64,000 nucleotides of DNA, from contig NW_006920887.1 of NCBI RefSeq assembly GCF_000417875.1, forward strand, positions 480,224-544,223, in the 5' to 3' direction. The DNA is from Pseudozyma flocculosa PF-1. Taxonomy: Eukaryota > Basidiomycota > Ustilaginomycetes > Ustilaginales > Ustilaginaceae. A program made the position numbers and the translations under genes. How positions within the stretch are numbered: position 1 is the first letter of the stretch; every line of letters starts with the position of its first letter. The notes under the pieces are model-generated. The model was given only the letters and a program-made list of their open reading frames with translations, searched no databases and was not told the DNA's origin. Of this stretch, positions 40,979 to 62,988 are shown one piece after another.

Positions 40979-41011
<33 letters not shown>

Positions 41012-41855: not shown

Positions 41856-41967
41856 AGCAGAGCGACTTCGAGACGATCTACAGTCGGTCCTTTGTCATTC
41901 TCGTTCTCTCTACCTGTGAAATCGACACGGGATGGCATGGTCGCCGTCTATCGGATGCGGACCTTCA

Positions 41968-43056
41968 CTAGGTCCGGATGCGGACCGAGAGGCAGGTGAC
42001 GCAGCCCTCGAGTGCCTCGAACTGGGAGATGTCGACGGTCTCGACGCGGTAGCCGCGCTGCCGGAGTATCTGGGTCGTCCTTGGCGCGTCTGACGACATG
42101 ACGAGGTGCGAGGGCGACAACACGACGACGGCCACGCCGTGTTCCTGGCCGGTCCGTCGACGAGGAGGAGGGGGCAGCGAGTGCGTGAGTGCTTGGCGGG
42201 AGGGGAGAAGTCTGGACTGGACTGGACTGGACTGGACTCGACTCACCTCTGGTACGGCTAGGAACGAAGGAAAGATGGAGGGATCGTCGACGATGGGTTC
42301 GTACCCGATCACGGTCCCATCCGGCAGTGCGGTGACGGCGCTCTCTGCGGTGGGTGAGCACGTTGATGAGGCTCCGGGGGCGTCAGTTTTGAACGAAGGG
42401 CAACGACGTCGGATCGACAAAGAGGGAGAGAATGGGCGGGAAGCGGGGGACACGGCAACTCAACTGAGATGGAGGGCCTTTGTAACGGGTACCTCGACCA
42501 GATCCATATCGAGTTCCTTTAAAAGAGCGCGGAGCTGCGCGCGACCGAGGTCATTGGTCCTACTGCTCCTCCCGACATACACGGTGCGGCCGACCTTGAG
42601 TAGATCACCGCCGTCGAGCCTCGCCTCACCCTCTATCCTCACCACCCTCTTCACGTCCCCTCCAAGATGGGCCCGGAGAAACTCTTCGATGCCGTCGAGT
42701 TCGGGTCGACGTGACTCGGCACCGGGCGAGGTGACGAGGATGGTACCGCGCGGCAGCGAGACGAGGATATCTTCGACAAAGACGCTATCGGCGCATGTGG
42801 GCGCGGGTGGAACCTCGATGATCTGCCACGGCGGCGTGGCGGTGGCGAAGAGGGAGATGTAAGCTTGCCATTGCGCCAGTGCGAGGGTGTGGGAGATGGA
42901 GGAGGGGGCGGGCGTCGAGATGTGCGTGATCTGTCCCGAGGCTAGGTTGGGCGGTGGTCGGCGAACCAGTAGCGTGCCTCCCCCTCCTCTCCCGCCTCCT
43001 CCTCCCTCCCCGCGAGGGGATGCGGATGTCGTGTTGTTGGTCGTCGCGGTGGACAT
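41968..43056 (-). CDS. NG,NG-dimethylarginine dimethylaminohydrolase-like protein (DDAH family)
   Basis: DDAH enzymes hydrolyse asymmetric dimethylarginine to citrulline and dimethylamine in the cytosol. Minus-strand exons 43056-42465, 42344-42247 and 42144-41968 encode 288 residues, the usual length. Motifs are APTCADSVFVEDILVSLPRG (substrate-binding Asp and Glu), ARLDGGDLLKVGRTVYVGRS (the GGD motif), TKALHLKSAVTALPDGTVIG (with the catalytic His at about 196) and the C-terminal EGCVTCLSVRI with the nucleophile Cys at about 281. The ATG at 43056 is preferred because it gives a family-length protein. An in-frame ATG at 43245 would add 63 residues rich in Arg, Gly and Trp that might be a leader. 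The first intron has a less common GTTGAG donor but joins in phase exactly through the HLK motif. Confidence 0.88.
42212..42244. repeat. (GGACT)n pentanucleotide repeat in the DDAH-like gene's second intron
   Basis: Five GGACT units plus a variant lie next to the donor site of the intron 42145-42246. It belongs to the set of non-coding pentanucleotide repeats in this window. Confidence 0.85.
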
Positions 43057-46000
43057 GCTCGAGGTGGTGGTGGACGAAAGCGAGTGCAGGCAGGGAGCGA
43101 ATGCGAGGGTCGTCGAGGGCTGCACTGCGCTGCGTTGCGGGGCAGGCGGTCCGTGCCCCCTCATCCCCCCGCACGGCCACCGCCAACGCTCACTGTTCCC
43201 GGCCAAGAAGCCGATCCCGCTCCGTACCGTCGTCGTCGTCGCCATCGTATCGCCCCCTTTGCCCAGCCTTGGTCTATCCGAGAGCAACCGGTAAGGCAGC
43301 CATCCGAGAAACGAGGCGGCTGCGGGCCCATGCCGAATGGTCCCCGACCGACGCCTGTCTCTCTCTCTCTCTAGACTCTGTACCGTCTCTGCTGGCTGGC
43401 TCGGCGCTACGCAACGCCGCGCTGCGCTGTGGCTGGATCAACTCCGGGCCGCATCGCTCGTCGCTCGTCGTCGTTGATTAGAGCTCCATCCCGTGCGCGC
43501 GTCTGGGCGGTCCGTCGGTCGGTGAGTGAGACCTTTGTTGCGGTTCTGCAGGAATGGATTCACCGGCGAGAGAAGCAGCCCCGTCGCGACAAGCCGAGGG
43601 CTGTTGGGCAGGCGGGCAAGCGATGAGGAACCAGCGTAACCTACCGCTGATCCTATGTCTTGCAGCTCCGCATCGCCGCACTGAGAGAGGCAGGCAGGCT
43701 GAGCCAGGTGCTCAGCTTTTGAAGCACAACGACACCTTACTGTATCTAGTGCTCCGTGGTGGCAGGGCAGCATTGCATGGTGAAGTCCCCGCAACCTGCC
43801 CTGCCGCGTTGATGCTGTCTTCATGTGACCACGTACGAACCTGATGCACCAGGCTATAGACGTCCATCCATCATTGCAGGAAGGGGATTGGCAAGGCAAA
43901 CAGGGATGCCAGAAGAGATTAAGCACGCAAGCAAGCTGCGTCACTTTGGACCTCGGACAAGAGAGTGGCTAGGAACACAGGCCGGGCTGCAGGCGTCGTA
44001 TTGATGGCAGGAATTCCTCGAGCAGACAACATCGCCCGAGGGCTCAGGCAGACAAGGCAGGCCAGACACCACCCGCCGCCACCGCCGCCGCCGACGACGA
44101 CGACGACGACGGCGTTCCATTCGAAGGAGCCGCTCGGCCAGCAACAGAAACACAGATGGAAGCACCCCCGCCCGCCAGCTCGATCCGGCCTGGGCTGGGC
44201 GGAGACACCGCTAAGCTCCTTTGCCTCGCCGTCGCCGTAGCCGTCGCCGTATTTCTTGCCCTCGCCGTCGCCGTCGCCTCACCGTCGACCGGTGGCTCTG
44301 CCCGCCACCAGACCCAAGCCAAACTTGCAAGCTTGGAGATAGAGATTCAAGATTGCCGCCAGCCAAGACGAGCGCGGCGAGGGCGACAGCACGCACGACG
44401 GTACCACTCCTGTCCAACGTCGGCCGCCACGACGGGCAGGCAGGCAGGGCAGGCGCAGCAAGGCGGGTCGCCCACTGGTCTGTTTGCCAGCGGCAGGTAG
44501 GCAAAGCGAGCAAGGGCGGGCTAGGCTGCGGCCTNNNNNNNNNNNNNNNNNNNNNNNNNNNNNNNNNNNNNNNNNNNNNNNNNNNNNNNNNNNNNNNNNN
44601 NNNNNNNNNNNNNNNNNNNNNNNNNNNNNNNNNNNNNNNNNNNNNNNNNNNNNNNNNNNNNNNNNNNNNNNNNNNNNNNNNNNNNNNNNNNNNNNNNNNN
44701 NNNNNNNNNNNNNNNNNNNNNNNNNNNNNNNNNNNNNNNNNNNNNNNNNNNNNNNNNNNNNNNNNNNNNNNNNNNNNNNNNNNNNNNNNNNNNNNNNNNN
44801 NNNNNNNNNNNNNNNNNNNNNNNNNNNNNNNNNNNNNNNNNNNNNNNNNNNNNNNNNNNNNNNNNNNNNNNNNNNNNNNNNNNNNNNNNNNNNNNNNNNN
44901 NNNNNNNNNNNNNNNNNNNNNNNNNNNNNNNNNNNNNNNNNNNNNNNNNNNNNNNNNNNNNNNNNNNNNNNNNNNNNNNNNNNNNNNNNNNNNNNNNNNN
45001 NNNNNNNNNNNNNNNNNNNNNNNNNNNNNNNNNNNNNNNNNNNNNNNNNNNNNNNNNNNNNNNNNNNNNNNNNNNNNNNNNNNNNNNNNNNNNNNNNNNN
45101 NNNNNNNNNNNNNNNNNNNNNNNNNNNNNNNNNNNNNNNNNNNNNNNNNNNNNNNNNNNNNNNNNNNNNNNNNNNNNNNNNNNNNNNNNNNNNNNNNNNN
45201 NNNNNACAGACTGACTGACCGACTGACCGACTGACCGAGCCAGCTCCTGCCCGCCCCTCACCCCGCCCGCCCCCTCTCTGTGGCCGCCTCCGTCCGCGGC
45301 TGCCGCTGCTGCCACTCTGCTCTCGCCGCTGCTGCTGCCGCCGCCGCCGCCGCTGCTCTGCCACACTACACACACTGCACCTCCCTAGCCGCCTCGCGAC
45401 CTCGCCATCGCCATCATCCTCCCTACGCTATCCCCCATCGTCCACCACCCACCACCCATCACCCCTACCGCCCGCCCGCTCGCCCGCGTCTCGACCTCGA
45501 CACCATATCTCTCCACGAATCTCTGCGCCGGCGCCACTCGTTCATCCGCCGCTCGCCCATCTCTCGCCTCCCCACGTCGTCCTAGACTCCGGCCAACAGC
45601 TGCGCGGTACACGTCTACCACCTTTCCCCGCCCGTCCTTCGCCCCGTCTACTCTGCATCCTTCCTCTCGAGGACCCGTTGCACCCTGCTCTGCGTCAATC
45701 CAACACCTCGGCGTAGCATTTGTGGCTTGGCTCCTTCTCCATCCGGCCACCCATCTTGGACTCTCCCGACCCAACTTGCCTTCCCCCTTCGCCCTCTGAC
45801 CTCGGCCTCGACCGATCGACACTCGTCCTGCCCACACCTTGCCTCTTGAACCTCCTCCTGTGTCCCTGTCCCTCTCGTCGTCACCGACCCCTTTGTCACC
45901 GCTGCGCCCTTCCCTCGTCCCTCGCCCATCACCGCCGCCGCCTGCACCTTGCACATTGCAACGCTATCCCCCTGGCCATCTTCCGACTCGCCATCCAGCC

Positions 46001-46268
46001 AGTCTGTATGACCGTCGAGCCTCGCCCCCGCCCAACCGTCTTCTCCCTATAGCGACACTCGACAGCCGCCTCCCTCGGCACGCGGATGCCATCCACCTGT
46101 CCAACACTGTGCCCCCGCAGCGTCCCGCGATAGACGTTCGTACTCCCTCGCCACCCGTCACGCCCCCTCGAACACACGCTCGGCGCCGGCCTCGATCCCA
46201 TCCGCAGGTACCGAGCCTCGGCACCGACCCCCCAGTCCAACACTCCGGCGGGGTGAAACTGGCCAGGC
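43057..46268. other. Long intergenic region and leader of the RhoGAP gene, with assembly gap
   Basis: 3.2 kb between the DDAH-like gene (-) and the RhoGAP gene (+). The left half has no recognisable gene. Right of the gap, about 1 kb is C/T-rich (TCCTC, CGCCC, CACC runs) with few G-rich stretches, as expected of a long 5' untranslated leader or promoter. A CGACTGAC repeat lies at 45206-45237. Confidence 0.5.
44535..45205. other. Assembly gap (671 N)
   Basis: The gap sits in the intergenic region before the RhoGAP gene. Its right edge is a tandem GACTGACC-like repeat, so it probably hides a longer repeat. A small gene could be hidden here. Confidence 0.95.
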
Positions 46269-49200
46269 ATGCCAGAGGGCAGGTCCCCCATCAGCCCTAG
46301 CAGCTCCGCCCAGGCCCCCTGGAGCGACCAGCTCTCGCCGCGCAGACCGCCACAGCGGTCCAACACAGGACAGTCCGACGCCGGCTCTTCCTACCACTCG
46401 CACTTCGTCTCCGCCGACGACACCGACGACGCCGCTGGCCAGCTCGGCGTCGGCATCGCCAGGATGAACACGGCCGACTCCGCCGAGGGCTCCTCCTCCT
46501 CGCGACTAGACCACGGCGCCAGACGCTCGCCCGTCGGGCCCATGCCACCGGGCGCCTTCAGGTCCAGCTCGCGTGCCTCGTCGCACGAGGGCGGCGGTGG
46601 CGGTGGCGGTGGCGGTGGCGCAGGGTCGCGCTCGCACTCGCCGGCACCCGGCTCCGACGTCGCAGCCCTTCGGCAGCAAGACAGGGCGGAGCTGTCGCCC
46701 AGCCCTTCGCTCAACGTACCCGGCGAGGGCAACGAAGCGAGGGGAAGGCGGCGAGCGGACACCGACAGGATCAAGAGCCGCGCCGTCGACCCGGGCTGGA
46801 GCTGGGAACAGGAGAAGGAGAAGCACGAGGGTGCTGCCGCCGCCGGCTTGACCTCATCCCCACAGCAGGCCAGCGGCGCAGCTCGAGAGGGGGTCGCACC
46901 GGTGCCTGGCCCCGGCCCACACCTTCCGCGCCGCGCCTCCTCGCGACCCATGCCGCGGATCGACACCAGCGGGCAGGCCAACGGCAGCAGCCACGCGGCC
47001 GCCAGAAAGGGTTCCCACAGTGCGCTGCCTTCGCCCGACGGCGGGCCGATGCCCGGATCCAGCATCGCCTTGGTGCAGAGCGGAATGTCGGATGGCAGCG
47101 CGGGCCAGGTGCCGTCCTCGGGCAACGCCGGCGGCGGAGGAGCGTCCGGCAGCCAGTCGCAGCTCAGCAGCAAGGAGCGCGGCCACTCGAGCCGCAAGGA
47201 GCAGAGCTGCCGCGCGTGCGGCAAGGTCATGACGGGCCAGTTTGTGCGCGCCCTCGGCAGCGTCTACCACCTGGACTGCTTCCGATGCAATGTGAGTACC
47301 CTCGCCTCCTCAACGCGCGTCCCCGGTTCGACCCGTTGCTCAGGCAATATAACTAATGCCCCCTCGTCTGCTCATCTTGGCTCCTTGTGCGCCGCCCCTC
47401 GGCCTGCAGGACTGCAACAAGGTGGTGGCGGCCAAGTTCTTCCCGGCGACGGACGACATGGTCGACTCGGCCGGCACGGGCAAGCTGTTCCCGCTGTGCG
47501 AGACCGACTACTTCCGGCGGCTCGACCTGATCTGCGCAAAGTGCGGCGGCGCGCTGCGCGGCAGCTACATCACCGCGCTGGGCAAAAAGTTCCACGTCGA
47601 GCACTTCACCTGCTCCGTCTGCCCGACCGTCTTTGGCCCGCAGGACAGCTACTACGAGCACGACAGCCAGGTCTTCTGCCATTTCCACTACAGCACCCGC
47701 TTCGCCATCAAGTGCACCGGCTGCAAGACGGCCATCCTCAAGCAGTTTGTCGAGATCAATCGCAACAACAACGACGAGCACTGGCACCCCGAGTGCTACA
47801 TGATCCACAAGTTCTGGAACATCAAGCTGTGTCCGACCGGCTCGACGCCGCGCGAGGGCGTCGCCAGCGAGCCGACGACGGTGCCGTCGGCGCCGGAGCC
47901 GTCCAACTCGGGCGTGGCGCCGACGCTCTCGGTGGCGGCCGACGCGATGCCCACCGTCGACGCCCTCGAGATCGAGGCCAAGGAGACGCCGTCGAGCCTC
48001 AAGCAGAAGCAGAAGCGGATGGAGGAGCGCGTCTACCGCATCTGGACGGTGCTCTCGGCGTTCGAGGAGAGCTCGGCCGCCTGCATCTCCGAGATGCTGC
48101 GCCACGTCAGCAGCGGCCGCTACCTCGGCGGCGTGCGGATGGCCGAGCGCTTCATCCTCCACGTCGAGGTCCTCTTCTCGGCCATCGACGACCTCGAGGC
48201 GCACTTCCGGCGCGAGGAGGCCAAGGGCATCTCGCACATCCGCGAGGCGCGCATGCTGTGCAAGAAGATCGTCAACTTCTTCTCGCTCCTCTCGCACACG
48301 CAGGAGACGGGCGCGCGGCGGATGGGCATCACTCAGGAGCTGCTCTCGCTCGTCACGGGCCTCGCCCACTACCTCAAGATCCTCATCCGCATCGCCCTCA
48401 CCGGCGCGCTCAAGCTCGACCGCGAGTACGGCAACGACGGCGCGCTCGGCTGGTTCCTCAGCCAGCTCGCCTTTTCGGCCAAGCTCGGGGGCTCGCAGAA
48501 CGACGACCAGCAGTTTGCCTCGCTCGACACCAACGCCGTCGGACCGGACGGCAAGTGGTACGGCTACCGCAGCCTGCCGCGGAGCACCAGCTCCGGATCC
48601 TCAGAGACCGGCGAGACGGCCACCGACCTCTGCGTCGCCTGCGGGCAGACGGTCGAGGAAGAGTGCCTCCGGATGGGCGTCAACCTACGGTGGCACTCGA
48701 ATTGCCTCAAGTGCAAGGGCTGCAAGCGGCCGGCCATCCGCGAAGGCCTGTCGTCCAAGAAGCCCGCCGAGCCCAAGGCCGACGCGCCCGAGCCGCTGCC
48801 GGCGTCGCAGTTTGGCCTCGACGTCGTCCGGCGTGCCCCACAAGAGTCGAGTGGTGGCGTCGGCCCCGGTGCCGGTGCAGGGCGGCCCCCGGCCCTGACC
48901 TACGCGTGCTTCTGCCCTAGCTGCGTCCACGCAGCTGTGGGCCAGCTGCGGTCAGGCTTCGAGTCGGTCACGCGCCTCGAGCAGTACGCATTCCTCCTCC
49001 GCGTCGCCCTCAACCGCCTGTTTGCGCTGCTGCGAAAGCGCGGCGTGGTGCCCCCCTCGCCGCCAACGGCCCCTGTCACGCTGCGCGACGCATCGCACAA
49101 GGACGCGGCGGCATCGGTCGGCGGCCAGGATGCCGGTCGCGGCAGCGGGGCCAGCGGTGCCGACGGCGACGGCGACGGCGACAACGGCGTGTCGATGCAC

Positions 49201-51724
49201 GAGGCCTACCGCGACTCGCAGGACATCAAGCGGATGAAGTCGGTCAACCTCGACCGCAAGCTCTCGACCAAGGCCAAGGTGCCGCGCATCTCGACGATCG
49301 TCGGCAGCCCCTCGGGCCGGCAGACTCAGACTTCGGACATGCAGCGGCCCTCGCCCACCGAGCTCGCCAGCCAGCAGCTCGAGTCGCGTCGCTCGCCAAG
49401 GTCCGCCAGCCCAGGATCCTCGCGTGGCGACCGCAGCTCGCCCCGACCCCAGGCGTCTTCGCGGGAGCCGTCGCCGAGCGGGCGGGATCCGAGGCTGTAC
49501 CAGCCGTCGATGCAGAGCCAGCAGGCGATCGCCGCGTCGCAGCAGCAGCACGTCCAGCAGCAGCAGCAGCAGCAGCACTTCCGCGGCCGAGGCACCCAGC
49601 CGACGCCGGCCCAGCAGCAGCAGCAGGCGGTGCCATCGATCCAGCAGCCCCCCTCGACGCCGACGGCCTCGTCGATGCAGCGCGGCGCGTCGCCCGCCGC
49701 ACCCGAGCCGGGCTCCATCGTGCCCATCCGGCCGCCGTTTGCGCGCCACAACACCGACGTGCGCATCCGCGAGGACGGTCCGATGCGGCAGCCCTCGGGC
49801 GACGAGATGGCCAAGTCGGCCCCTAGCGAGGACGGCATCACGCTGGCCGACATCCCGCACATCCTCGAGGCGGAGCAGGCGCGCGAGCAGCACCGGCCCA
49901 TACCCAACGAGGGCGCCCGCACCATCTCGGAGCTCTCGGCGCTCGAGCTGTTTATCGTCAAGCACATGGCCGTCATGATGCTGCAGCAGTCGGCGCTCAA
50001 GGACATGGTCAACCTCGACGACCTGATCGAGTTCATCGAGACGCGCAAGAACACGTTCTGGGGCAAGTTCTTCAAGGGCGGCAAAGACAAGAAGGAGATC
50101 AAGAAGAAGGGTGAGTGGCCGCGCGTGTTGCCTCCGGTCTCGTTGCGACGAGGCATCTTGTCGCTGACTCGCTGGTCTCTGCTCCTCCCCTCTTCTGCAC
50201 CCGCTGGGCAGGCGTGTTTGGTATTCCGCTCGAGATCCTCGTGGAGCGCAACGGCGCCGACTCGACGCTCGGCGCCAGCGCCGCACACCTCCGCGTGCCG
50301 TCGTTTATCGACGACATCATCTCGGCCATGAAGCAGATGGACCTGTCGGTCGAGGGCATCTTCCGAAAGAACGGCAACATCCGCCGGCTCAAGGAGCTCT
50401 CCGAGGCCCTCGACCGCGACAGCTCGCAGGTCAACCTGCTCGACGACAATCCGGTGCAGCTGGCGGCGCTGCTCAAGAAGTTCCTACGCGAGCTGCCGGA
50501 TCCGCTGATGACGTTCAAGCTGCACCGGCTGTTTGTCATGTCGCAGAGTGAGTATCGCACTGCGGAGCCGTGCGCTGCGGCGTGCGCGAGTGCGCGCGTG
50601 CGATCGATGGCATGCCAGCTGCTCTCCTCTGACCAGACTTTCGCTCTTGGCCCCCTCTTCCGCCGTCCTTCGTCCGCTGCCCTCTCGCAGAGCTCGAGTC
50701 GGAGGACGAACGGCGCCGGATCCTGCACATGGTGACGGTGCTGCTGCCCAAGAGCCACCGCGACACGATGGAGGTGCTCTTCGCCTTTCTCAAGTGGGTT
50801 GCCTCATTTTCGCACATTGACGAGGAGACTGGCAGCAAGATGGACCTGCCCAACCTGGCCACCGTCATCTGCCCCAACATCCTGTACTCGAAGGGCACCG
50901 ACCCGGCCAAGGACGAGACGTTCCTGGCCAACCGCGCCGTCAGCTACCTGCTCGAGAACCAGGACGACTTCTGGACGGTGCCCGAGGAGCTCGAGGCGGT
51001 CCTCTACGACCGGGAGCTGCTCAGCGCGTCGGCCGAGCTGACGTCGCGCGACATCCTCAAAAAGTGTGAAAAGTACGCCAAGCGGCAGCGGGTGCCCGGC
51101 GTCAACGGGCCGCGCGGCACGGGCAACGGGCCCTTCCACGCTGGCGAGATGACGAACCGACATCGGCCAGACATGCACCCGCCGACGACGATGCGGCAGA
51201 TCCAGATGGAGAGCCACAGCTACCGCGGCAGCAGCAACAACCACAGCGGCAGCAGCGGCAGCAACGGCATCGGCACCGGCCACGCGCCCCACGCCCAGCA
51301 GCTCGGTGCTGGCAACGCCTACTCGCGCAGCCCGGACAGCGGTGGGCCGTGGTCGGCGGGCAGCGGCGGGGCGGCCAACTTTTCCAGTCCGACGGACAGG
51401 CTGCCGCCGTCGAGCCATGCGACGCCGCAGAAGCCGTCGACGTTTGGGCCGGGCGGCCACGGCGGGCAGCCGCCGCGGACGCCGACGCAGCTCAACGGTC
51501 CGGGCCTGCCGTCGGTCTCTGGGCATCCGCAGCAGCAGCAACCGCAGCAGCCGCAGCAGCCGGGGCAGGCGCACCACAACAACCATCATCACCACCATGC
51601 GGCGGCGAGCTACGGCTCGGGCCAGCAGCCGTCGACGCCGCAGGGCTTCTACCCTCGCAGCGGCACGCCCTCGGACGGCGGCGAGCGGAATCGCAACATG
51701 CCGGTCGAGCAGCGGTCGAGCTGA
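46269..51724 (+). CDS. LRG1: LIM-domain RhoGAP, Lrg1-like
   Basis: Rho GTPase-activating protein with LIM zinc domains; the yeast relative Lrg1 acts on Rho1 to control cell-wall synthesis and polarity. Exons 46269-47291, 47410-50110, 50212-50547 and 50691-51724 give 1697 residues. After 310 disordered residues come LIM 1 (CRACGKVMTGQFVRALGSVY, then HLDCFRCNDCNK), LIM 2 (CAKCGGALRGSYITALGKKF, then HVEHFTCSVC) and LIM 3 (CTGCKTAILKQFVEINRNNN, then HWHPECY). A helical region with SHIREARMLCKKIVNFFSLL leads to a partial fourth LIM (CVACGQTVEEECLRMG, RWHSNCLKCKGC). The RhoGAP domain starts at FGIPLEILVERNG. It has VEGIFRKNGNIRRLKEL with the arginine finger at about 1293, LLKKFLRELPDPLM and LPNLATVICPNILY. 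Poly-Gln runs lie before and after the GAP domain. Three to four LIM units favour Lrg1 over Rga1/Rga2. Confidence 0.9.
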
Positions 51725-53573
51725 GCGCGAGCGGCAAACGGCGGGCCGCCTTGCTTGCAAAGCAAGGCCACGGGTGCTTTGATCTACATCTACATCTAGC
51801 CTTCTCACCTCTCACCTGTCATTCTTCTTGCCTAGCGCCATGGTCCTTTATCGTATTTCTAGGGCGCCGGCTCGGTCCCGGCCCTCTTGGTGCCTACGGA
51901 GAGGGTGGCGTGCCGGCGTGGCATGGCCGGAGGTGTGGGGCCTGCGCCGAGCCGACTTCCTCGTGGTCACACTCGCCTTGTTGCCGTGCCGTATTCATTC
52001 TCCTATCGACGCCCCAGGTTGCGCGATTTCGCACCACCGTCAAGGCTTCTGCGTGCTTCTTCAGCCTGCCTTTCAACCGCCTTGGCTCCTCGCCAAGCAC
52101 CCGTCCACCCACCTTGGCCTACCTATCGTTGTTGTTCGTTTTTCCGTTGTCGACCTATCTGCGTCCGTCGATCTTGGCGAGAGAGAGAAGAAATGCAAAG
52201 GGAATCATCCACCATGCGGTCCGGTGCGGGTCTCTGGCTGGGTCTAGTCGACGAGGCAGGCCGTCGAGCGGGGAAGGGGTCTGGGGAAATCGGGTCGACG
52301 GGCTGCGCTGGTGGCGTTGGGGGAGTCTGGCCGTCGCCGTCTTCCTGTCAAGACGCACGAACGGGGTGGGGTGGACGGGGAAAAGGAGAATAGGGGGGGT
52401 GCGGGGTGCGGGGTGCGGAGGGTGGGTTGCGGAGAATAGGCACGGCTTGGCTTGGCCAGCGTGCGCAAATGTGGGCGTAGGGCGCCAGGCCCTGTACGCT
52501 GACGCTGTACGGCGCCCCTGACTCTCGTCCTCTCTCTCTCTCCATCCCATCGCATCGAATCGCATCTCCCTAGGCTGCCTCTCTGCTCGTGTGTCGACGG
52601 GCTAGGCTAGGCTAGGGCATGCCGGCGTCATACCACATCGTCGAGATCAACATGCATGCATGCATGACCTGCCTAGCATCTGGACCGCCCGGTAGGTATG
52701 CCATGCCCTTCTGGCCCAGGCGCAATCCAACAGGACCAGAGAACTGACGGCCTCTTTGCCCCCCCACCCCCCTCCCCCCTCGCCCCGCCCTGGCTTGGTT
52801 TGGCAAGGGTCTCCCTTAGCTTTCCTTTCATGCTGCGTATGCGTGCGTCGTTGAAGGCCGTACTGCCATCGTCCCTCCTCGCTCTCCGCGACCCGGCCTC
52901 AGATAGAGGATTGGCGACTGCTCCTCGCACCCGGAGACGAGACCGGTGGCACGACCTCGGATTGGGGTGGGCATCATTTCGAGCGGACGGACGACGATAC
53001 CGCAGCCGTACGCGGTGCCCTCGCCACGCCCCCCTCTCATCCCGTCGCATCCTGCGCCCAGGGCTGGGGCTGGGGCTGCACTTGGTCGCTCCCACCGCCT
53101 TGGGGCGCAATACTGCCTCGCTAGGTTGTCTCGTTTGAGGCTAACCATCTAGGGTCCTGGCGAGCGTGTACGCGCGTGCGTGTGCCTAGCAGCCTAAGGC
53201 CAGGGCTTGTGCTCGTGAGTCCCCCTCCCTCGATGGCTTGCCACCAGGTCCATCCTCCTTTCCCCCTCCCTCTCCCTCCCTCCCTCCCCTCGTCCTCTTC
53301 CCCTTCCTCAGTTTCCCTCCTCATCCTCGCCCTGTCCCTCGCTTCCTCAGCCCTCTCGCTCAGCTCTCGACCCGGCCATCCTGCCTCTCTCGACCGATAG
53401 GCCTCTACGCCGTCGTCGTGTGCTCAATCTACGTCCCCCCCTCCCCTCCCTCCCTCGTGGCTGCCGTTGCGGCCCTCACCTTGGATCACGCCGCTACCCG
53501 TCACCGACCTACCCCCCTCACTGCGGCCGTCCATCCCTCTCGACGGTACCGCGAACTCCCCGCAGACAGTCCG
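51725..53573. other. Intergenic region
   Basis: 1.85 kb between the RhoGAP gene and the next plus-strand gene. It contains a small ATGCATGCATGCATG palindromic tract near 52651-52665 and C/T-rich tracts before 53574. No open frame has a recognisable domain. Confidence 0.5.
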
Positions 53574-55250
53574 ATGTATCCGGATGCGCCGCCGCTCGCT
53601 CCTCTAGCGTCCAGCAACTACCCACCATCACCACAGCGTCCAGCGCCCTCGCCATCCCAGACGAGCAGGGGGCATGATCACCTCGGCAACACTCCCGCGC
53701 CCGTTCAGGTCCAGGTTCACGACAAGGCACAGGTCCGACAGAGCAGCGATCAAGCTTCAACGAGGGCCACCGCCGCACCGATACGCGACTACGATGTAGA
53801 TGCCACGCTCCGACCCTCTCAGGCATCAAAGGCTCAGGCCTATGACCCAGGCGCGACGACGGCATCAGCAGGCACACGGCCCCGCTACGATCCGGAGCCC
53901 TACCGCCCCAGAGAAGCCTACCGCCCCAGCCAGCGAGGGCCCACGGCATCCGCCCAGCGAGGCTTCTACATCCCTCCGCCCGGGTACAACGTCACCCCGA
54001 CCTCTTCCAAGCTCGAGGACGGCGGCGCGCGATCTCGACAGGATGCGGCGGCGCAAGCACAGGAGGCGAGCAGTGGCTCCTCATCCTGCCACTCGAACCC
54101 TTCCGCTGTCGACGGCGGTTACTGGCCGAGTCCGCCGCGCGATTGGCAGCCGCAGCTGCAGCGCATCGAGGCGCGCCCTGGCCTCGCGACGTACGGCGGC
54201 CACGGCGAATGGCACCCCATCGAGACTTCGCCCGGCCGGTGGACGTGGATGCCCGTGATCCGGACGAGGAGCGCGGGCGATTCTGGGCTGGACGCCTTCT
54301 TTTCGAGCCTCTCGCACAACGACTGGACGGTGCCCCAGGCCAAGCAGATGCTCACCAGCTGGGCCACGGTCGCCACGCTGCTGGCAGGCACGCAGGGCAC
54401 GCTGCTGACGCTCTACAAGAGCGATCTGCACCCGACCAGCGTCGGGTTCGGCTTCGCGGCCCTCTTTCTCGAGATCTGGGGCGCCATGACGGCCACCATC
54501 TGCATCGTCGTCAGCATCACGCTCCAGGGCGCAGACGAACACGGGGCGGGCCGGCGTTCCGCCAGCATGCACCGCCGAGGGGCCAACGACGTGTACAGCT
54601 CGCCCACGGCGGCGGCGCCAAAGAAGCGACTGTCGATCAAAGCGGCATGCATCCTGGACCGCCTGACGCTCGCGACGGGCTGGATCGTGCCGTCCGGAGC
54701 GATCCTCGAAGTCATCGGCATCCTTGCCTACGTCACCGCCCAACACAACGGCCGCCTCCTGTACGGCCTGGTGACGACCATGTGCCTGAGCGCCGGCGTG
54801 ACGGTGTTCGCCATCGGAGCCGGGTACTACAGCGGGCACTGCCAGCAGGCCAGGCTGCGCGGCGTCGGCGAGGTCCGCCGTCGACCGATGTCGGATCGCC
54901 ACCAAGCCGATACGGGCGCCGATCGACGGTACCGTGGGCGGGGGCGAGGCAAACGCGGTGTCGACCCTGACGGCGGCGGCGACGGCCGCGGCGACGCTCC
55001 TGGATCCGAGAAGCGGGCGCGCGGGGGCAACGACGATGCCGAAGAGGAGCTGGATGAGCGCGGTCCCGGCTTCTGCGGGCTGCCCTTGATGGGGTGGAGA
55101 GACCACGGCGAGTACGGACCAGACTATGCTGACAGCGACAGCGACGTCGACGGCGGCGGCGACGGGCTCAAGCTCTTCGACGGAGGACGGGGCCAGGGTC
55201 CGGGCCAGGGCCAACTTCCCTCGCCACTCGACGCCGTCGTCGCTTGCTGA
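53574..55250 (+). CDS. Unrecognised membrane protein with four predicted helices
   Basis: I do not recognise the family. The single-exon product from the first in-frame ATG has 558 residues. Residues 1-200 are disordered and rich in Pro, Ser, Gln and Tyr. A short conserved-looking segment HGEWHPIETSPGRWTWMPVI precedes the membrane part. Four hydrophobic stretches follow: around WATVATLLAGTQGTLLTLY, FGFAALFLEIWGAMTATICI, TGWIVPSGAILEVIGILAYV and LYGLVTTMCLSAGVTVFAIG. A hydrophilic loop of about 65 residues separates helices 2 and 3. The C-terminal 120 residues are highly charged (Arg/Asp/Gly). The layout resembles a small fungal integral membrane protein with both ends in the cytosol. No transporter or enzyme motif is visible. 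It stands alone between the RhoGAP gene and the second secreted-protein cluster. Confidence 0.75.
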   Translation: MYPDAPPLAPLASSNYPPSPQRPAPSPSQTSRGHDHLGNTPAPVQVQVHDKAQVRQSSDQASTRATAAPIRDYDVDATLRPSQASKAQAYDPGATTASAGTRPRYDPEPYRPREAYRPSQRGPTASAQRGFYIPPPGYNVTPTSSKLEDGGARSRQDAAAQAQEASSGSSSCHSNPSAVDGGYWPSPPRDWQPQLQRIEARPGLATYGGHGEWHPIETSPGRWTWMPVIRTRSAGDSGLDAFFSSLSHNDWTVPQAKQMLTSWATVATLLAGTQGTLLTLYKSDLHPTSVGFGFAALFLEIWGAMTATICIVVSITLQGADEHGAGRRSASMHRRGANDVYSSPTAAAPKKRLSIKAACILDRLTLATGWIVPSGAILEVIGILAYVTAQHNGRLLYGLVTTMCLSAGVTVFAIGAGYYSGHCQQARLRGVGEVRRRPMSDRHQADTGADRRYRGRGRGKRGVDPDGGGDGRGDAPGSEKRARGGNDDAEEELDERGPGFCGLPLMGWRDHGEYGPDYADSDSDVDGGGDGLKLFDGGRGQGPGQGQLPSPLDAVVAC

Positions 55251-55680: not shown

Positions 55681-55970
55681 ATGGGCACGTACGATGCCAG
55701 CTCAGACGCAGCGAGCTGGTACGACCCTGCTCCTGCTGCTGCTCCTGCTCGGGCATCACACGTCACCACCTGGACCGTCTGCGGCCCACTGGCGACCTGT
55801 GCGACGCTCCGGGTGGAAGGCGTACGACCGGACGGCCGCTCGACGAATCGCGATCCCGGATCAGACCTTGGCTGTCATGCCACATCATCAATGTTGAACC
55901 TACCCACATGCTGACCCACAACATTACGGAACTGGCATGGGGTGGTGCAGCAATGGACTTTGCGTGATGA
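55681..55970 (+). pseudogene. Probable decayed copy of the small secreted-protein family
   Basis: Pieces of this stretch resemble the intact genes at 60236 and 62484 in the right order. DASSDAASWYD resembles DASDQSRWELF, and NRDPGSDLGC resembles KAIPGSRLVC at the end of exon 1. THNITELAW resembles THNLNEVWH of the last exon, with TGACCCACAAC identical at the DNA level. The first two are in one frame and the third in another. At the expected donor the usual GTGAGT is GTCATG (55874), and there is no AG acceptor before the exon-2-like part. A signal peptide is not found in the matching frame. I infer a relic that has lost its splice sites and 5' end; chance similarity remains possible because the matches are short. 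Confidence 0.35.
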
Positions 55971-56190
55971 GGTGCGTTTGGCGCCCCATTTCTTCAGCCG
56001 GAACGCAACTGCCGCGAGGACAGAGGACCCGCTAGAAGCAAAGGGGGTGGGTCCTCGACCTAAAGATGCCAGCGAACACTGACTGACGTGGTGCGCAGCG
56101 ACGAGGACCCCCACCGTGGGCGACGGGAGGTGGGGGCGTACAAGCCCCTCGTCTGTGTCTGCGTCCCTCCGAGAGCCACGCCTGGCCTCT

Positions 56191-56197
56191 ATAAAGC
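56191..56197 (+). promoter_or_regulatory. TATA box of secreted-protein gene 56296
   Basis: TATAAAG lies 105 nt before the ATG of member 4. Confidence 0.6.
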
Positions 56198-56295
56198 CGG
56201 ACATCCTGCGCCCGCAAAGACCTCGACCGCACCTCAACACTCCAACCGTGCAGGCCAAACTCCCCGACACACAAGCCTTGACCAGACCGACAAGC

Positions 56296-56833
56296 ATGAA
56301 GCTCTCCGCCCTCCTCACCGCCCTCGCCGTCGCGCCCTTGGCGCTGGCCGCGCCGTCCTTGCCGTCTGGCAAGACGTACGAATGGCGCTTCACGATCCTG
56401 ACATTCGGATACGGCGTAAAGATCAAGTCTCGAATCCAGTTCATCACGGGACCGAAGCCCAAGATGTGCTTCAAGCTCGACCCGAACCAGCCGACGCCCG
56501 GCACCGAGGGCCTGGACTGGCAGATGTTTGCCAACGGTGAACCGCTCCACGATGAGGCTCTCATCGGAGCCTGCTGGGATGCAGGCGTGAACCTAGTCAC
56601 CCTCGGCTGGTCCATCATCGACGGCAAGGACGTGCCCGGTTTGGAGATCTCTAGTAAGTCACAGCCGCGGGTCCAGCTGGGAAGCGAGCGTCGAAGACGC
56701 CGCATGCAGGGAGGTTGGCAGAGCGCTGACCTCTGTAACAGTCTGTAAGCCGGTCCCAGATGTCGGCGCCGCGGTGCTCGACAACACACCCTGCTACAAT
56801 AGGTGGATCTCCGGCAGGTGGACGGTCGCCTAG
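56296..56833 (+). CDS. Small secreted protein, candidate effector family, member 4
   Basis: Exons 56296-56653 and 56742-56833 (phase-1 intron, 88 nt) encode 149 residues. The signal peptide is MKLSALLTALAVAPLALAAP. The mature part has a Lys-rich PKPKMCFKLDP segment (the family's Cys-Phe motif), Trp residues in GLDWQMFANGEPL, and DGKDVPGLEIS at the intron, which parallels DGRPVPGARID of member 6. The last exon encodes ICKPVPDVGAAVLDNTPCYN and ends in RWISGRWTVA. There are four cysteines in the mature protein. No known domain is seen. The gene begins the second cluster of the family, in the same orientation as members 5-7. Function unknown; exported by inference. Confidence 0.78.
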
Positions 56834-57826
56834 ATCGGCCGCAAGGCTCGACAGGAGCAGGTGGCTGCACCTCGCTCCACTCGGCGTAGCATGCGCCGAG
56901 GTACCTTCAAGGTGCGGCGCGGCAGCGCGGAGCCCGACCACAGGCGCCTGCCAACGAGCCCCGCGGTCGGGGCGTCGTCCTACTTGGTGCCTTGGTAGTC
57001 GCCGAAAGGCACCAGCCGTTTGTCTCTGCGGGACCAAGGTCCCATTCTCTGAATCAAATGGTCCCCATCTCCCGGTCCTGTAGTCGGCCACGAGCGTCGA
57101 CGGTCTCAACGCGCTGCGAGGTCGGCACGGTCGCCACGAGTAGCGGGCGCGGGCGGATTTGGGCAGTAGTGGATTGCGCAGCGCGGATCGCAGATAGCGG
57201 CTGCAAAGCTGGCGAGTGCGGACTCTAGCGACTAAAGCGATACGAAAACCGCTCGATCGAGAGCTAGGTGAAGCTCTGGCTCCCGTAGACTTTTGAGACG
57301 AGGCTGCTCGGCCACGGCTGCGCTGCCGTCGCGACAGATAAGGGTCCCATTCGGCGTCCAGCTTGCATCCCGCAGCGCCGTTCTGAGCCCAAGCTGTGGA
57401 ACACAGCAAAGTCTCCGCCCTCCCCTCAGGCGAGGGCAGTCCGGGGGCGATGATTATTGTCGACTTGCTGGAGGCTTCCACGGAAGTCGGTATCTGTGGC
57501 CAAGGGGTCCAGCGGAAGGCCGCACTCCGGTAATTCCAGTTGTCCGCCATCTCGACGAAGTCCGGATGGAGAAGAGGCAGCCTTTGACAGCCTGGCCCCA
57601 TAGTGGTCTGCTGGAAGATCGTCCTGCCGATGATATTGAGACGATGACCCACTTCCCTCGGCAATCTCAGAAGGCAGCAACTTGGTTGCTCTCATTCGAT
57701 TCAGCAAATCCCTGTCTCCCGGCCCGGAAGGCATCCCATCGCACGGTGGGACTCGCGATCCCGTGAACGCGCGAGGTCCGCCCATCTTGTGGGCAGTTGC
57801 ATCCAAGGCCAGGCAGGGCGAGAAGG
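56834..57826. other. Intergenic region between secreted members 4 and 5
   Basis: 1 kb of less GC-rich DNA. A long minus-strand frame crosses it and the 3' end of member 4, but it has no ATG at its start, no signal peptide and no recognised domain. No gene is supported. Confidence 0.45.
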
Positions 57827-57833
57827 TATAAAA
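57827..57833 (+). promoter_or_regulatory. TATA box of secreted-protein gene 57887
   Basis: TATAAAA lies 60 nt before the ATG of member 5, implying a leader of only about 30 nt. Confidence 0.7.
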
Positions 57834-57886
57834 GGCGGGCAGTCGTGGCATCGCTCTCTGAGAGCAGACCCCAGCTACACATCGAC

Positions 57887-58393
57887 ATGAAGCTCCTCGC
57901 CATCTCCAGCTTGCTCTTGCTCGCCGCCACTACCGGTGCGCGGGCCGAAGCCTACACACTTGCCATCAAGTCCCACGACGGCCAGATCGGCCACCTGATC
58001 TATGACTACGACGATCAGACTGTTGGCTTCTACTACATCAGCGAGGTCGCCCCGGACCCAAGCTCCCAGGACTGGGACCTGTACGTCGATGAAGATAGTA
58101 AGGTGGACGTCGTCAGTGGCAGGTACAACAAGCCGGTGGATGCCGACGATCCCAAGTGGCCGCGCGTCTTGACCGATGTGCTCCGGGAGCTCGTGGATGG
58201 GCGGCCCTATTCAAACCTCCGCATCAAATGTGAGTCGGTTGCGAAGCGGGGGACCCTACTTGCTTCAACATCGGACCACTTACGGCCGCCTTGACCCACC
58301 GATATCCCTAATACAGTGCAATCCGAGGGCGAATACGAGGACTATCCCATTTCTGGTGTCTTCAGCCAGCTGTCGGCTGCAAGCAACACGTAG
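57887..58393 (+). CDS. Small secreted acidic protein, candidate effector family, member 5
   Basis: Exons 57887-58229 and 58317-58393 (phase-1 intron, 87 nt) encode 139 residues. The signal peptide MKLLAISSLLLLAATTGARA is followed by AEAYTLAIKSHDGQIGHLIY and a strongly acidic, aromatic-rich mature protein (DWDLYVDEDSKVDVVSGRYN). It has no cysteine in the mature part: the family's Cys-Phe position reads VGFYYI. Before the intron it has ELVDGRPYSNLRIK, matching LIADGRPVPGARID of member 6. The last exon encodes LQSEGEYEDYPISGVFSQLS and ends AASNT. No domain is recognised. The strong TATA box and very short leader suggest tightly regulated, high expression, but that is inference. Confidence 0.8.
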
Positions 58394-60110
58394 CCGATTA
58401 CCGCACGGCATCGCTAAAGGTCATCTGTGGAATGCGATGCTATCTCGGTGCGGCAAATCGAAGCCTGACCGGGCCCGTTCAGCTCCGCGCGGTCTCGGAG
58501 AGGCAAACGTTGTCAAGCCGTTGCTTTTGGTCCTCTCACCTTGCTGCGAGCCCCTCCGTCGCCCATCGGAATACGGTCCGACCCTCTCCTTCCCTCCTTG
58601 ACTCTAGCGTGGTCGGCATGGCCGCTGTCGCAGCGTGTACTAGCACGCGTGCATCGTTCGGCGGCCCTTGTCGACGGTCCATGTCGGGCTGCGTTCTTCC
58701 ACTTTGCGGCCCTCTCGAAATACAATCCGAGCGTTGAGGGCGTTGAATGAAACGCTTGACCGTATGCCTGGGCTCCTGATCGATCGATCTTGACGTGGCG
58801 ACGTGGTCCGACCCTCGATCAGCGCAGACCTGCCTTCAGTGAAGCCTGAAGCTGCGCGCCAGGGCCGGATAGTTCCTTCCAAGGCAGACCCGCGCCTCGC
58901 GGGCCCGGCTCGCTCCCGTCCGGACCATGGAAGCCAGTCCGATGGAGGACTTCCTGCCGCTGACGGCGGGACCACAACGAGCGATCGCCCACCTCCTTGC
59001 ACCCGGAGTGGGGGAGGCAAGATACGGGTACCTTTCCGATGACCGGCCCGGGGCCAACTTCCGGCGTCGTTCTCCGTCGAGCATGGTTGTCGTCCCACAG
59101 CTTGACCCACCAGACGGGCAACAGAGGGCCCACATGTTCCACGAGCCGCGGCCTTGCACCCGAGCGACCCGGGTCGCCCCCCACTCAAGCCCGCCCCACG
59201 CCTTGCTTTGAGCGTCGCGGCGTGCAGCCAGGCTTGTACCATTTGTCATGAAACGGAGCTCGAGCCGGTCCGTAGCATGGACGACGGGCATGGGTGAGCA
59301 TCACGAGGCCTGAAAGCACGCTGTTCTGTAAGCTACTGTATTGCTGCCCTTGAACGGCAAATGCCAGCAACGGTGCCGAAGGTGGGTGGGGGTCGAAGCT
59401 CCCTTGTCCATCGCGCGAACTGTCGATGGGTCAACGGCGATTGAGGACATATAAGGCGGTGCAGCGTGTAGTTCCCGTACCAGCGTCGGAACATGGGCGT
59501 GGCAGGAGCGTGGTGCGAAAGAGCAGGGACAACGAACGGCGCACAGTGAATGGTAGCTTGCTCTCGACTCAGGTGCCGCTTTAACGACTGCCGCACCATG
59601 CTCAAATATGTAGAGACGAGGTGGGTGCATGTGTAGTGCTGCAATTGAGGTCACCGCCTTAGCTTTGTGGGTCTTCCGTTGTCAGGATCTGGGCACGCCC
59701 ATCCCGGCCTCTGTCTGTTCCAGGCACGATTGCTCCGACCATCTTTGGCGCCGATTTCCGGCTTGTGGGGGTTTTAGTTGCCACCTACGGACGATAAGAG
59801 CGTGGGGCGGCACATATATACATAGGATAACAGCTGTCTCCACGAGCAAATTGGGACTACTCGCATCGTGCCGCTCGACGCGAGGACGAAACAGAAGATG
59901 AGCAAAATGGCGCCATAACCGGGCCTCATGCTGTACTGGCGTGAACACGCTTGAAGCTAGCGCTATCACGTCTCTGAGCCCCAGCCCGAGGACAGGTCTC
60001 TCATCTCATCAACTTTCCGGCCTGGCATGCTCAAACGAGGCCGCGACGGAGTCGCGTTCTTTAAAGGCCAACTGAGGAAGTCCTAGCCAGCCCTGAGCTG
60101 GCCGTTGGGC
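58394..60110. other. Intergenic region between secreted members 5 and 6
   Basis: 1.7 kb of intermediate composition. TATA-like words occur near 59446 and 59811, but no ATG-initiated frame with a signal peptide follows either within 200 nt. No gene is supported; a decayed family member could be present but I could not align one. Confidence 0.45.
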
Positions 60111-60117
60111 TATAAAA
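60111..60117 (+). promoter_or_regulatory. TATA box of secreted-protein gene 60236
   Basis: TATAAAA lies 125 nt before the ATG of member 6, followed by a C/T-rich leader. Confidence 0.65.
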
Positions 60118-60235
60118 TGCCCTGGCACCTCCCTCCCGACTGCCCCCTTCTTCAACTCACATCGCTCGAACAACCCTCCTCCCCCTCCTTCAGACCATCC
60201 TTCTTAAACTCCCTCAACCTTCCCCACCGTCCGCC

Positions 60236-60702
60236 ATGAAGCTTGCTGCTCTTCTTTCCCTCGTTCCGACGCTGGCCTTTGGCGCCCCGGCGTCCAACAA
60301 CTTCATCCTCGGTTTCACTTGGTCCGACGGGTCTCAAGGCTTTCTCACTGCGGACAAGCTCACGAGCAAGATTTGCTACTTTCCGCTGAAGCCGGTCAGC
60401 GACGAGGTCGACAGGTTGTGGTTCTTGAAGCTGAACGAACAAGACGCTGTTCAAGGTAGCTACGGCGATTGCGGTGCCTTGATGAACCAAGGTGGCGGTG
60501 AGATCTACCTCAAGCAGATCATCAACCTCATCGCCGATGGACGTCCGGTGCCTGGCGCCAGGATTGACTGTGAGTCAAGCGTGGTAGATGCCATAGGACT
60601 GGGCTGCTCTGCTGACGAGCATCTCTCGCCATATCACAAGACCTCTACGGGGATAATCGGATGACCCACAACCTTAACGAGGTGTGGCATCGTGTCGGTT
60701 AG
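60236..60702 (+). CDS. Small secreted protein, candidate effector family, member 6
   Basis: Exons 60236-60569 and 60641-60702 (phase-1 intron, 71 nt) encode 131 residues. The signal peptide MKLAALLSLVPTLAFGAPAS is nearly the same as that of member 7 (MKLAALFTIVPLLIGSASA). The mature protein has NFILGFTWSDGSQGFLTADK, SKICYFPLKP (the Cys-aromatic motif), RLWFLKLNE and GSYGDCGALMNQGG, then LIADGRPVPGARID at the splice site. The last exon encodes YLYGDNRMTHNLNEVWHRVG. Two cysteines (ICYF and DCGA) correspond in position to NFCFV and NQCGG of member 7, so the two are probably a duplicated pair joined by one disulphide. No known domain. Likely exported; role unknown. Confidence 0.82.
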
Positions 60703-62391
60703 GGGTGGCGAAAAGCAGCCCGACGCTGGGTGCGAGAAGCGCGCTGTCTCTCATCCAGCCGTTTGAGCCGACGCGGCGACTCACGAGACGCTACTCTCAA
60801 CACCTACCACTCGTTGGACCTTGTCGGTCTAGCATCATCTACACACCGCCTCCTCGCCCCCTCCCCTGACCCCCTTCTTTCCCCTCCCCCAGAGCCCGAA
60901 AGTGTCGCTGGGTGCCTCAGCTCTGCTTCTCATTTTCATGATTTCTTACTCTACATGAGCCTTTGCCAGCGATCGCCTGTGTGGGCATCACAAAACGACA
61001 GTGCGACTGGCAGAATGTGTGTGTCCAGCCGTTCGAACCTGTGTAAATGCCCTCGAAAGCGAGGAAAGAGGGTAGTCAGGGGGTTTCACCTGCGCACCAC
61101 GAATGTAGTTACCATCGTGTCGGAGGGCGCCACGCCGGCCGCCAGGAAGTCAATGTTTGTCGCCCGAGATGCGGGGTGTTGAGGCCATTGACCCCAACGA
61201 ACGCAGCACAAGAGCACCGGCGGCAACTCTGGGGCGTGTGGGAGGCACGCGACGCTGCTGCTGACCTTTGCTCGCAGTACGTTTCCAAAGCCGGCTGTCT
61301 TGCCGGGCTCCGTGTCGAAAGACGCAGCCCCGCACTCGGAGCGCACCCGAGAGCCTTGCGCCGCAGCTCGATGGCCTCCCGACAATTCTGGCCGTTGTCA
61401 CCGCTCCACGCCCATTCTCTCATTCCGGTCGTTGCAGCCGAGTGAGCCTGACCGGGGATCGCGGCCCGAAGTTGCGAGCAGTCTAGTGTACAAGGAGCGC
61501 CATCGATACCCGTCACTAGCTTGCCAACGTCGCTCGCGACCGAAGCCGCCCAGGAGAGGGTCCAAAACGTCGCAGTCAAAAGGGGACGGCGCCCAATGCG
61601 CGGTGCGGTGTGGGCGGGCAAGTGGGCGGCGGCGGGCACCGAGGCTGTGCACACCCGATACCGACACGATGCTTGTGAGGTCGGGATGTGGGTCGGTTGA
61701 CTTGGTGCACCCACGCACGATTGGGTGGCACGGCAACGGGGCTTCGATTCGTCCTGATGCCGGGACGCCTGCCGTCGGGGCACCGTCGTGTGGGCGCGCT
61801 TGGACGTCAATCGCAATACGCTCTCGCTGCGCTCTGTGTGACGGTCATACGTGCAGGACCAAATCGAGGCTGCCGCTGCAGCTCGCAAGAGGTCATCCCA
61901 CGACGAACCAGATCGAACCAGGTCGAAGTACGAGCCATGAACGCCCCCTGAGCGTAAGCCGACGTTGCGTCGCCGATTGCCTGGTGGGTTGGTCGGCCGA
62001 CTCCTTCGGCCCCTGGTTGCTGTGTGGTACGTACACATGCGATGAGCGCAGTAGTGCGAGATACGGCTGCCACGTACAAGAAAAATCGGTTACGTACGTC
62101 CATACATATTCAAACGCCCGAACGTGGGGCTCGAGGCGTGCTATTGTCGTGCTTGCAGCCAAAGGGGGAGCCGGCGCCGAACACGCATCCGTGCTGGCAA
62201 CCTGTGGCGACCCAAACGTCCTCCCCTTGTACGCCACTCGATCTAGCCGTTCGTGGGCCTACCGCGCGGTCCGGCCCGACTGGGGCGCTTTGCGGAGCCA
62301 AGGCCGTCAGCAAGAGCGGACAGCACCCTGTGCGGCCTTTATCGAGCAGGACGGGATGCCCTAGCCCGGCCCATGGCCATGGTCATACGGC
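60703..62391. other. Intergenic region between secreted members 6 and 7
   Basis: 1.7 kb crossed by long frames on both strands (about 300-350 codons) that begin at non-ATG codons and have no domain, signal peptide or splice-consistent extension. I regard them as chance frames. Nothing else is seen. Confidence 0.45.
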
Positions 62392-62399
62392 TATAAAAA
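62392..62399 (+). promoter_or_regulatory. TATA box of secreted-protein gene 62484
   Basis: TATAAAAA lies 92 nt before the ATG of member 7. It has the same GGCTATAAAA-like context as that of member 6 (GGGCTATAAAA). Confidence 0.7.
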
Positions 62400-62430
62400 G
62401 CCCTCTATCTGACCCCCTTCCTCAGCTCAT

Positions 62431-62479
62431 CCACCTCACCTCACCTCAACTCACCTCAACTCACCTCACCTCACCTCGT
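62431..62479. repeat. (ACCTC)n pentanucleotide repeat in a 5' leader
   Basis: About nine ACCTC/AACTC units lie between the TATA box and the ATG of member 7, so they would be transcribed as its 5' untranslated leader. A length change would alter leader length without touching the protein. Confidence 0.85.
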
Positions 62480-62483
62480 CACC

Positions 62484-62988
62484 ATGAAGCTCGCTGCTCT
62501 CTTCACCATCGTCCCTCTTCTGATCGGCTCGGCGTCGGCCGTGCTTCACACCATCGCGCTCGATCACACGCCCGCCTATACCCTCGGCGGCTTGTTCAAG
62601 TACGACACCGACCTCAAAAACTTCTGCTTTGTTGCCAACAAGGCCGCCGATGCGAGCGACCAGTCTCGTTGGGAGCTGTTCTACAAGAACACGGGCATTC
62701 AGGCGGGCGGCATGTACAACCAGTGCGGCGGGTTCCCTGGCGCACCCGATGGTAACCTCGTCAACCTCGAGATGAGCTACCGCAATCTGATCGCCTCGAA
62801 CAAGGCCATTCCCGGATCTCGCCTGGTCTGTGAGTAGTGATGCGGCAGGGGGTCATATACGGGAGTCGCGGGCCGTCGCTTATCGCCGAGATCCACGTCC
62901 GGAATCGCCTGTCCTGGCCCATGCAGTCACCGACGGCAACGGCCGCAACATTGGCACGGCGGACCTCTCGAACATGAAGTGGACCTGA
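62484..62988 (+). CDS. Small secreted protein, candidate effector family, member 7
   Basis: Exons 62484-62829 and 62927-62988 (phase-1 intron, 97 nt) encode 135 residues. The signal peptide MKLAALFTIVPLLIGSASA is followed by VLHTIALDHTPAYTLGGLFK, DLKNFCFVANKAADASDQSR (Cys-Phe motif), WELFYKNTGIQ, GGMYNQCGGFPGAPDGNLVN and SNKAIPGSRLV at the splice site. The last exon encodes FTDGNGRNIGTADLSNMKWT. It pairs with member 6 by near-identical signal peptide, two aligned cysteines, intron phase and a 62 nt last exon in both. No domain is recognised. The leader is made of ACCTC repeats. It is the right-most supported gene in the window. Confidence 0.82.

Follow-up and report, generated by a model that had tools for sequence, protein, structure and literature searches.

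A 3' phase-1 intron shared by seven small secreted-protein genes of Pseudozyma flocculosa: a candidate family of diverged effector-like proteins

The Mig1 cluster of Ustilago maydis is described as having 13 members, tandem copies, pairwise identities of 0.6-30% and four conserved cysteines (Cys) engaged in two disulfides (PMC12503489), and mig1-related genes are reported to form clusters in U. maydis and Sporisorium reilianum and to be dispersed in U. hordei (PMC4081819). A 2025 account presents the family's members as alike in structure although their sequences have diverged extremely, and a 2026 review counts the family among the sequence-unrelated, structurally similar effectors. Pseudozyma (Anthracocystis) flocculosa is described as a yeast-like smut relative, an antagonist of powdery mildews and a biocontrol fungus, for which the reported record is one of a few key smut virulence effectors lost and more than 200 species-specific secreted candidates (PMC6079639, PMC10210494). 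Mildew contact is reported to induce secreted candidates in this fungus, and one of its effectors, with features other than those of the genes described here, is reported to be needed for full biocontrol (PMC10210494). Here we analysed a window of 64,000 nucleotides from contig C19 of the 23-Mb assembly of P. flocculosa PF-1, in which seven genes for small putative secreted proteins lie in two subclusters. All seven carry a single phase-1 intron close to the 3' end, and we read them, with modest preference, as one birth-and-death family of effector-like proteins in which the intron has outlasted the sequence.

The seven genes were rebuilt as A1-A3 in the first subcluster and B1-B4 in the second, with the following exons.

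A1 exon 1, 21091..21409, minus strand: signal-peptide-like start, FCF core (Cys48), four Cys in the mature part, phase-1 donor GTGAGT
A1 exon 2, 20914..20969, minus strand: 18 codons
A2 exon 1, 22690..23128, plus strand: signal-peptide-like start, six Cys (54, 75, 81, 89, 93, 110), phase-1 donor GTGAGT
A2 exon 2, 23219..23307, plus strand: 29 codons
A3 exon 1, 24644..25139, plus strand: signal-peptide-like start, four Cys (68, 108, 113, 130), phase-1 donor GTGAGC
A3 exon 2, 25376..25464, plus strand: 29 codons
B1 (PFL1_05426) exon 1, 56296..56653, plus strand: phase-1 donor GTAAGT
B1 exon 2, 56742..56833, plus strand: 30 codons in our model; the NCBI acceptor lies 18 bases later, leaving 24 codons
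B2 (PFL1_05427) exon 1, 57887..58229, plus strand: mature protein without Cys
B2 exon 2, 58317..58393, plus strand: 25 codons
B3 (PFL1_05428) exon 1, 60236..60569, plus strand: Cys47 and Cys79; strands 1-5, helix and start of strand 6 of the predicted structure
B3 exon 2, 60641..60702, plus strand: 20 codons; end of predicted strand 6 and strand 7
B4 (PFL1_05429) exon 1, 62484..62829, plus strand: Cys48 and Cys81
B4 exon 2, 62927..62988, plus strand: 20 codons

Every one of the seven genes proposed in an earlier note on this DNA is present, and NCBI models back four of them: B2, B3 and B4 are identical letter for letter to PFL1_05427, PFL1_05428 and PFL1_05429, and B1 differs from PFL1_05426 solely in its acceptor (143 amino acids in the NCBI protein, 149 in our model). 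The start of the first gene of the second subcluster, previously put at 55681, is corrected to 56296. A protein search with A2 and A3, of which A1 was not part, returned no NCBI entry, so that the models of A2 and A3 are drawn from genomic sequence only. A run of N starts at the end of the window, and the B cluster may extend past it.

The architecture is uniform. The introns are GT-AG and in phase 1 in all seven genes and precede last exons of 18-30 codons, as had been proposed. The N-termini are signal-peptide-like by eye in all seven, in agreement with the secretion-type starts claimed before, and six of the seven pass a crude rule. With cleavage sites placed by hand, the mature parts measure 105-167 residues, so that the expected range of about 105-175 is slightly narrowed. 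The cysteine core announced for six of the seven genes was indeed found in six (B2 lacks it), but its position, given as about 35-60 residues in, is now set at precursor residues 47-68, the last value being that of A3. No Pfam family was detected at the curated cut-off in any of the seven window proteins or in the three relatives described below.

How unusual this layout is was assessed with an architecture scan defined by a signal-peptide-like start, a GTRAG donor and a terminal exon of 15-35 codons. Within the window, 7 of 9 signal-peptide-like open reading frames (ORFs) passed, all in phase 1; six of them are A1, A3 and B1-B4, while A2 was missed at the N-terminal rule. The seventh is a minus-strand ORF at 37717, next to Ssl1 in the block that separates the subclusters, and may be spurious. 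Elsewhere on the contig, none of the 10 signal-peptide-like ORFs in 190 kb of readable sequence passed the strict scan, and under relaxed settings the passes were 7 of 21 in the window and 2 of 30 outside it (one phase 1, one phase 0). On the scanned part of the contig the phase-1 3' intron layout is thus rare enough to be searched for directly, which makes the method portable. The scan is not an unbiased test because the genes were chosen for the scanned trait, and relatives found out of sample are therefore a better one.

Such relatives exist. Querying the genome with A2 revealed, at expectation values (E) of 7.9e-5 to 2.5e-3, three new genes: C22a and C22b, which lie about 1.6 kb from each other on contig C22, and C6a on contig C6. 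C22a matched C22b and C6a at E 2.6e-10 to 1.5e-9. In all three, a phase-1 intron is followed by a last exon of 14-17 codons, with donors GTGAGT, GTGAGA and GTGAGT; the C6a donor was taken straight from the sequence, as the start of this gene failed the rule of the scan. Their last exons are alike, beginning VNGQFTQF, ANGQYAQF and VGNNFQFQ. C6a may resemble Mig1-annotated smut proteins. Beside the intact C6 gene, on the opposite strand, lies a decayed copy with in-frame stops and no evident start (contig C6, 165150-166200, minus strand), which is evidence of gene death. The family would thereby total at least ten intact genes and one decayed copy in three or more genomic places. Two other matches were seen: a short, weak one of A1 on contig C12 (473367-473444, plus strand, 26 residues, E 0.032), which falls within a long open frame, and a weak one of B2 on contig C21 (40250-41050, E 0.0036), which by eye is of p24/GOLD type and was taken as unrelated.

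Sequence kinship was then evaluated on mature parts only, with 1000 shuffles per pair for the 21 window pairs. Four pairs are clear: A2-A3 (z scores of 15.1 local and 10.1 global; BLASTP E 8e-9), B3-B4 (8.4 and 7.0), B2-B3 (4.7 and 5.8) and B2-B4 (5.4 and 2.0). Profiles were tested with 40 shuffles each, the A/C profile combining the A2/A3 group with the C22 and C6 genes, and A3 and C22b being left out as targets. B1 scored 20.75 with the B2-4 profile (shuffles 11.0 ± 1.9) and 16.48 with the A/C profile, values reached by 0 of 40 shuffles in both cases, and its local match to B3 consists of the 13 residues directly before the intron (DG..VPG..I). A1 matched the four-protein B alignment weakly (P 0.025), with the FC core and the intron both in register. 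By sequence comparison the genes form two groups, one of A2, A3 and the three outside genes, the other of B2, B3 and B4 with B1 as an outlier; the membership of A1 and the link between A and B would be carried by the architecture, sequence giving no significant link. Common descent of all seven, as put forward in the earlier note, thus holds within the two groups and goes beyond the evidence for A1 and for a shared ancestor of A and B.

Cysteine counts are 4-6 in A2, A3 and the outside genes and 0-4 in B1-B4. Mature proteins contain 0, 2, 2, 4, 4, 4, 6, 6, 6 and 6 of them, an even number in ten of ten with our B1 model: A2 and each outside gene have six, A1, A3 and B1 four, B3 and B4 two and B2 none. 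All five A/C proteins keep C54, C89, C93 and C110 (numbered as in A2); A1 and B1 also have four Cys, at a spacing unlike that of the A/C proteins. The two Cys that A2 and the outside genes share between C54 and C89 are exactly those missing from A3, a pattern that would be expected from the loss of one disulfide pair.

Structure prediction for B3 with three paralogues gave a confident model (mean predicted local distance difference test (pLDDT) 81, predicted template modelling score (pTM) 0.71) made of five strands, a helix (residues 87-100) and two strands, with the core Cys47 in strand 3. The intron, at codon 112, falls in strand 6, the second-last one, which leaves the rest of that strand and the whole of strand 7 to the last exon. 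This predicted order of strands and helix would differ from that of the RNase T1-like fold. Compared with the PDB, the B3 model had no close match, and no Mig1 entry was among the matches listed in the PDB searches. For A2, a low-confidence model shows three strands, of which the third contains the core Cys, then a further pair of strands, a long helix (117-140) and the intron at codon 147, with two short extra helices in between. The broadly similar sequence of elements in A2 and B3, intron included, is only a hint of a fold shared across the groups: the structural check proposed for these proteins yielded a confident model for B3 and a low-confidence one for A2.

The two subclusters lie in different promoter settings. 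TATAAA occurs five times on the plus strand of the window, at 778 and at four sites located 60-125 bp upstream of B1-B4.

56190..56195, plus strand: TATAAA upstream of B1, -106 from the ATG
57827..57832, plus strand: TATAAA upstream of B2, -60
60111..60116, plus strand: TATAAA upstream of B3, -125
62392..62397, plus strand: TATAAA upstream of B4, -92

In about 190 kb of readable sequence from other parts of the contig, TATAAA is absent from the plus strand and present five times on the other strand. B1-B4 thus appear, from these motifs, to share a core-promoter type. The block of conserved genes said to separate the subclusters was recovered as a block of ordinary genes.

26007..55250: separating block between the subclusters
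26007-30311: fungal transcription factor, in the separating block
35256-36287: BAR protein, in the separating block
37965-39740: TFIIH Ssl1, in the separating block
46269-51724: LIM and RhoGAP reading frames, in the separating block, which may be one gene
53574-55250, plus strand: membrane protein adjoining B1

We propose, as the account that the evidence slightly favours, that all seven genes come from a single family evolving by birth and death. Its founder would have encoded a signal peptide and a beta-rich core that contained one helix and was held by cysteine bonds, with a phase-1 intron lying just ahead of the exon that encodes the C-terminal strand. As copies arose in tandem and diverged rapidly, most of the identity would have been erased while the intron stayed, and putative disulfide Cys would have been lost mostly in pairs, from six (A2, outside genes) to four (A3, A1, B1), two (B3, B4) and none (B2). 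The proteins would be expected to act outside the cell at the mildew contact surface, and would probably be secreted effectors at the interface with the leaf or the powdery mildew; a contact-stage effector role is plausible for P. flocculosa. The B subcluster may be driven by its TATA-box promoters, perhaps inducibly.

Several results weigh against this account. The searches with C22b and C6a did not recover each other, and genome searches with B3, B4, B1, A3 and A1 found no member beyond the window. The B2-4 profile was at chance on A1 (score reached by 11 of 40 shuffles), A2 (17 of 40) and C6a (8 of 40) and borderline on C22a (2 of 40), and the A/C profile was at chance on A1 (5 of 40), B2 (11), B3 (19) and B4 (17). 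The profile-profile comparison of A with B that had been suggested was run with hhalign and went against a link, with probabilities of 0.9%, 8.2% (signal peptides included) and 0.12% (mature parts only), none of them significant. A1 gave no match to the A/C alignment comparable to its match with B. The NCBI model of B1 has three Cys, an odd count that brings the even ones down to nine of ten, and the model of A2 exon 1 is poor (pLDDT 50.6). No TATAAA was found upstream of A1-A3 or in the 75-206 bp before the three outside genes. Finally, a search of Laur et al. 2017 for 'pf054' did not find the window genes named in its main text.

An alternative that is compatible with the single-family account, and to which we give a substantial chance that stops short of even, is that divergent smut Mig1 effectors, kept from a plant-pathogenic ancestor, make up the A/C group and perhaps the family as a whole. 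The four Cys invariant in five of five A/C proteins and the tandem and scattered copies found here, in a related fungus, point that way; the published traits of the U. maydis cluster are similar (tandem copies, four Cys, identity of 0.6-30%; PMC12503489), and mig1-related genes are described as clustered or scattered depending on the smut species (PMC4081819). Our protein searches, however, returned no Mig1 sequence, although they are low-powered at such divergence, and B2-B4 lack the four-cysteine pattern. The membrane protein next to B1 served as a synteny probe for the mig1 locus: its search returned itself, one unnamed protein and matches in Thecaphora frezii (57%) and Testicularia cyperi (47%, covering half), with no U. 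maydis gene among the returned matches. The statement that no named family is recognised in these genes was in any case premature, given published Mig1 traits that are similar by description, and the status of the family as undescribed is unproven because Mig1 membership could be judged by description only.

Another explanation is that two or three unrelated secreted families (A2/A3 with the C22 and C6 genes, the B genes, and A1 as a singleton) converged on one layout, the 3' phase-1 introns being fortuitous or typical of this fungus's small secreted genes at large. We consider this unlikely, though worth serious attention: A and B have no significant sequence link, A1 is clearly tied to neither, Cys counts and promoter types differ between the groups and the A model is of low confidence. 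Against convergence stand the rarity of the layout elsewhere on the contig (0 of 10 in the strict scan; 1 of 30 in phase 1 in the relaxed one), the position of B1 above all 40 shuffles with both profiles (20.75 with B2-4, 16.48 with A/C) and the low-confidence A2 model, in which strands, long helix and intron follow one another much as in B3. Function is a separate matter, as the products could be secreted proteins without a host target, serving surface adhesion, carbohydrate binding or antimicrobial activity in an epiphytic yeast; we regard this too as unlikely, since divergence, tandem arrays and a decayed copy would fit an arms race better. That the proteins are ribonuclease-like (RALPH-type), like those of the prey Blumeria, and gained or convergent, is very improbable: the general layout is the same (small secreted proteins with a Cys core, and an intron whose relative position is common to them; PMC3582587) and A2 has one F-x-C, at Cys75, but Y/F/W-x-C is missing at the core Cys, where the residue two before is L, L, V, K, K and N in the six proteins with such a core, and B3 has the order five strands, helix, two strands.

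A bolder form of the single-family account, which we think rather improbable, is a hidden effector superfamily inherited from a plant-pathogenic smut ancestor, tagged by the 3' phase-1 intron and mostly even Cys numbers, and redeployed against a fungus. If this were true, intron position would become a marker by which sequence-unrelated effectors could be sought in the genomes of smuts. More generally, a family joined by intron position and not by sequence would group orphan secreted candidates such as those of P. flocculosa, and would test the reuse of smut-type effectors against a fungus.

The literature searched, outside which the genome paper lay, contained no description of this P. flocculosa gene family, and the described systems resemble it to different degrees. 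The P. flocculosa protein Pf2826 is likewise secreted and acts in the interaction between mildew, barley and yeast, but is described as a protein of 454 residues with LVIVD repeats (PMC10210494). For the RALPH/CSEP effectors of Blumeria graminis, which have diverged, descent from a common ancestor has been argued from a shared relative intron position (PMC3582587), so that the argument made here from intron position is already known; those proteins differ in the Y/F/WxC motif, absent here from the core Cys, and A3 lacks even the F-x-C that A2 has elsewhere. The Tin2-like cluster of U. maydis, compared by description, is also an array of seemingly unrelated secreted proteins that likely go back to one ancestor (PMC9816061). 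The likeness to Mig1 (UMAG_03223 and relatives), again by description, extends to small secreted proteins of related fungi, tandem or scattered copies, four conserved Cys and sequences that have diverged to an extreme degree, with the differences that the B-type members have 0-4 Cys and that P. flocculosa is a mildew antagonist whereas the carriers of Mig1 are smut pathogens. By this analogy the Mig1 family is the closest known analogue of the genes described here, and their kind is known already.

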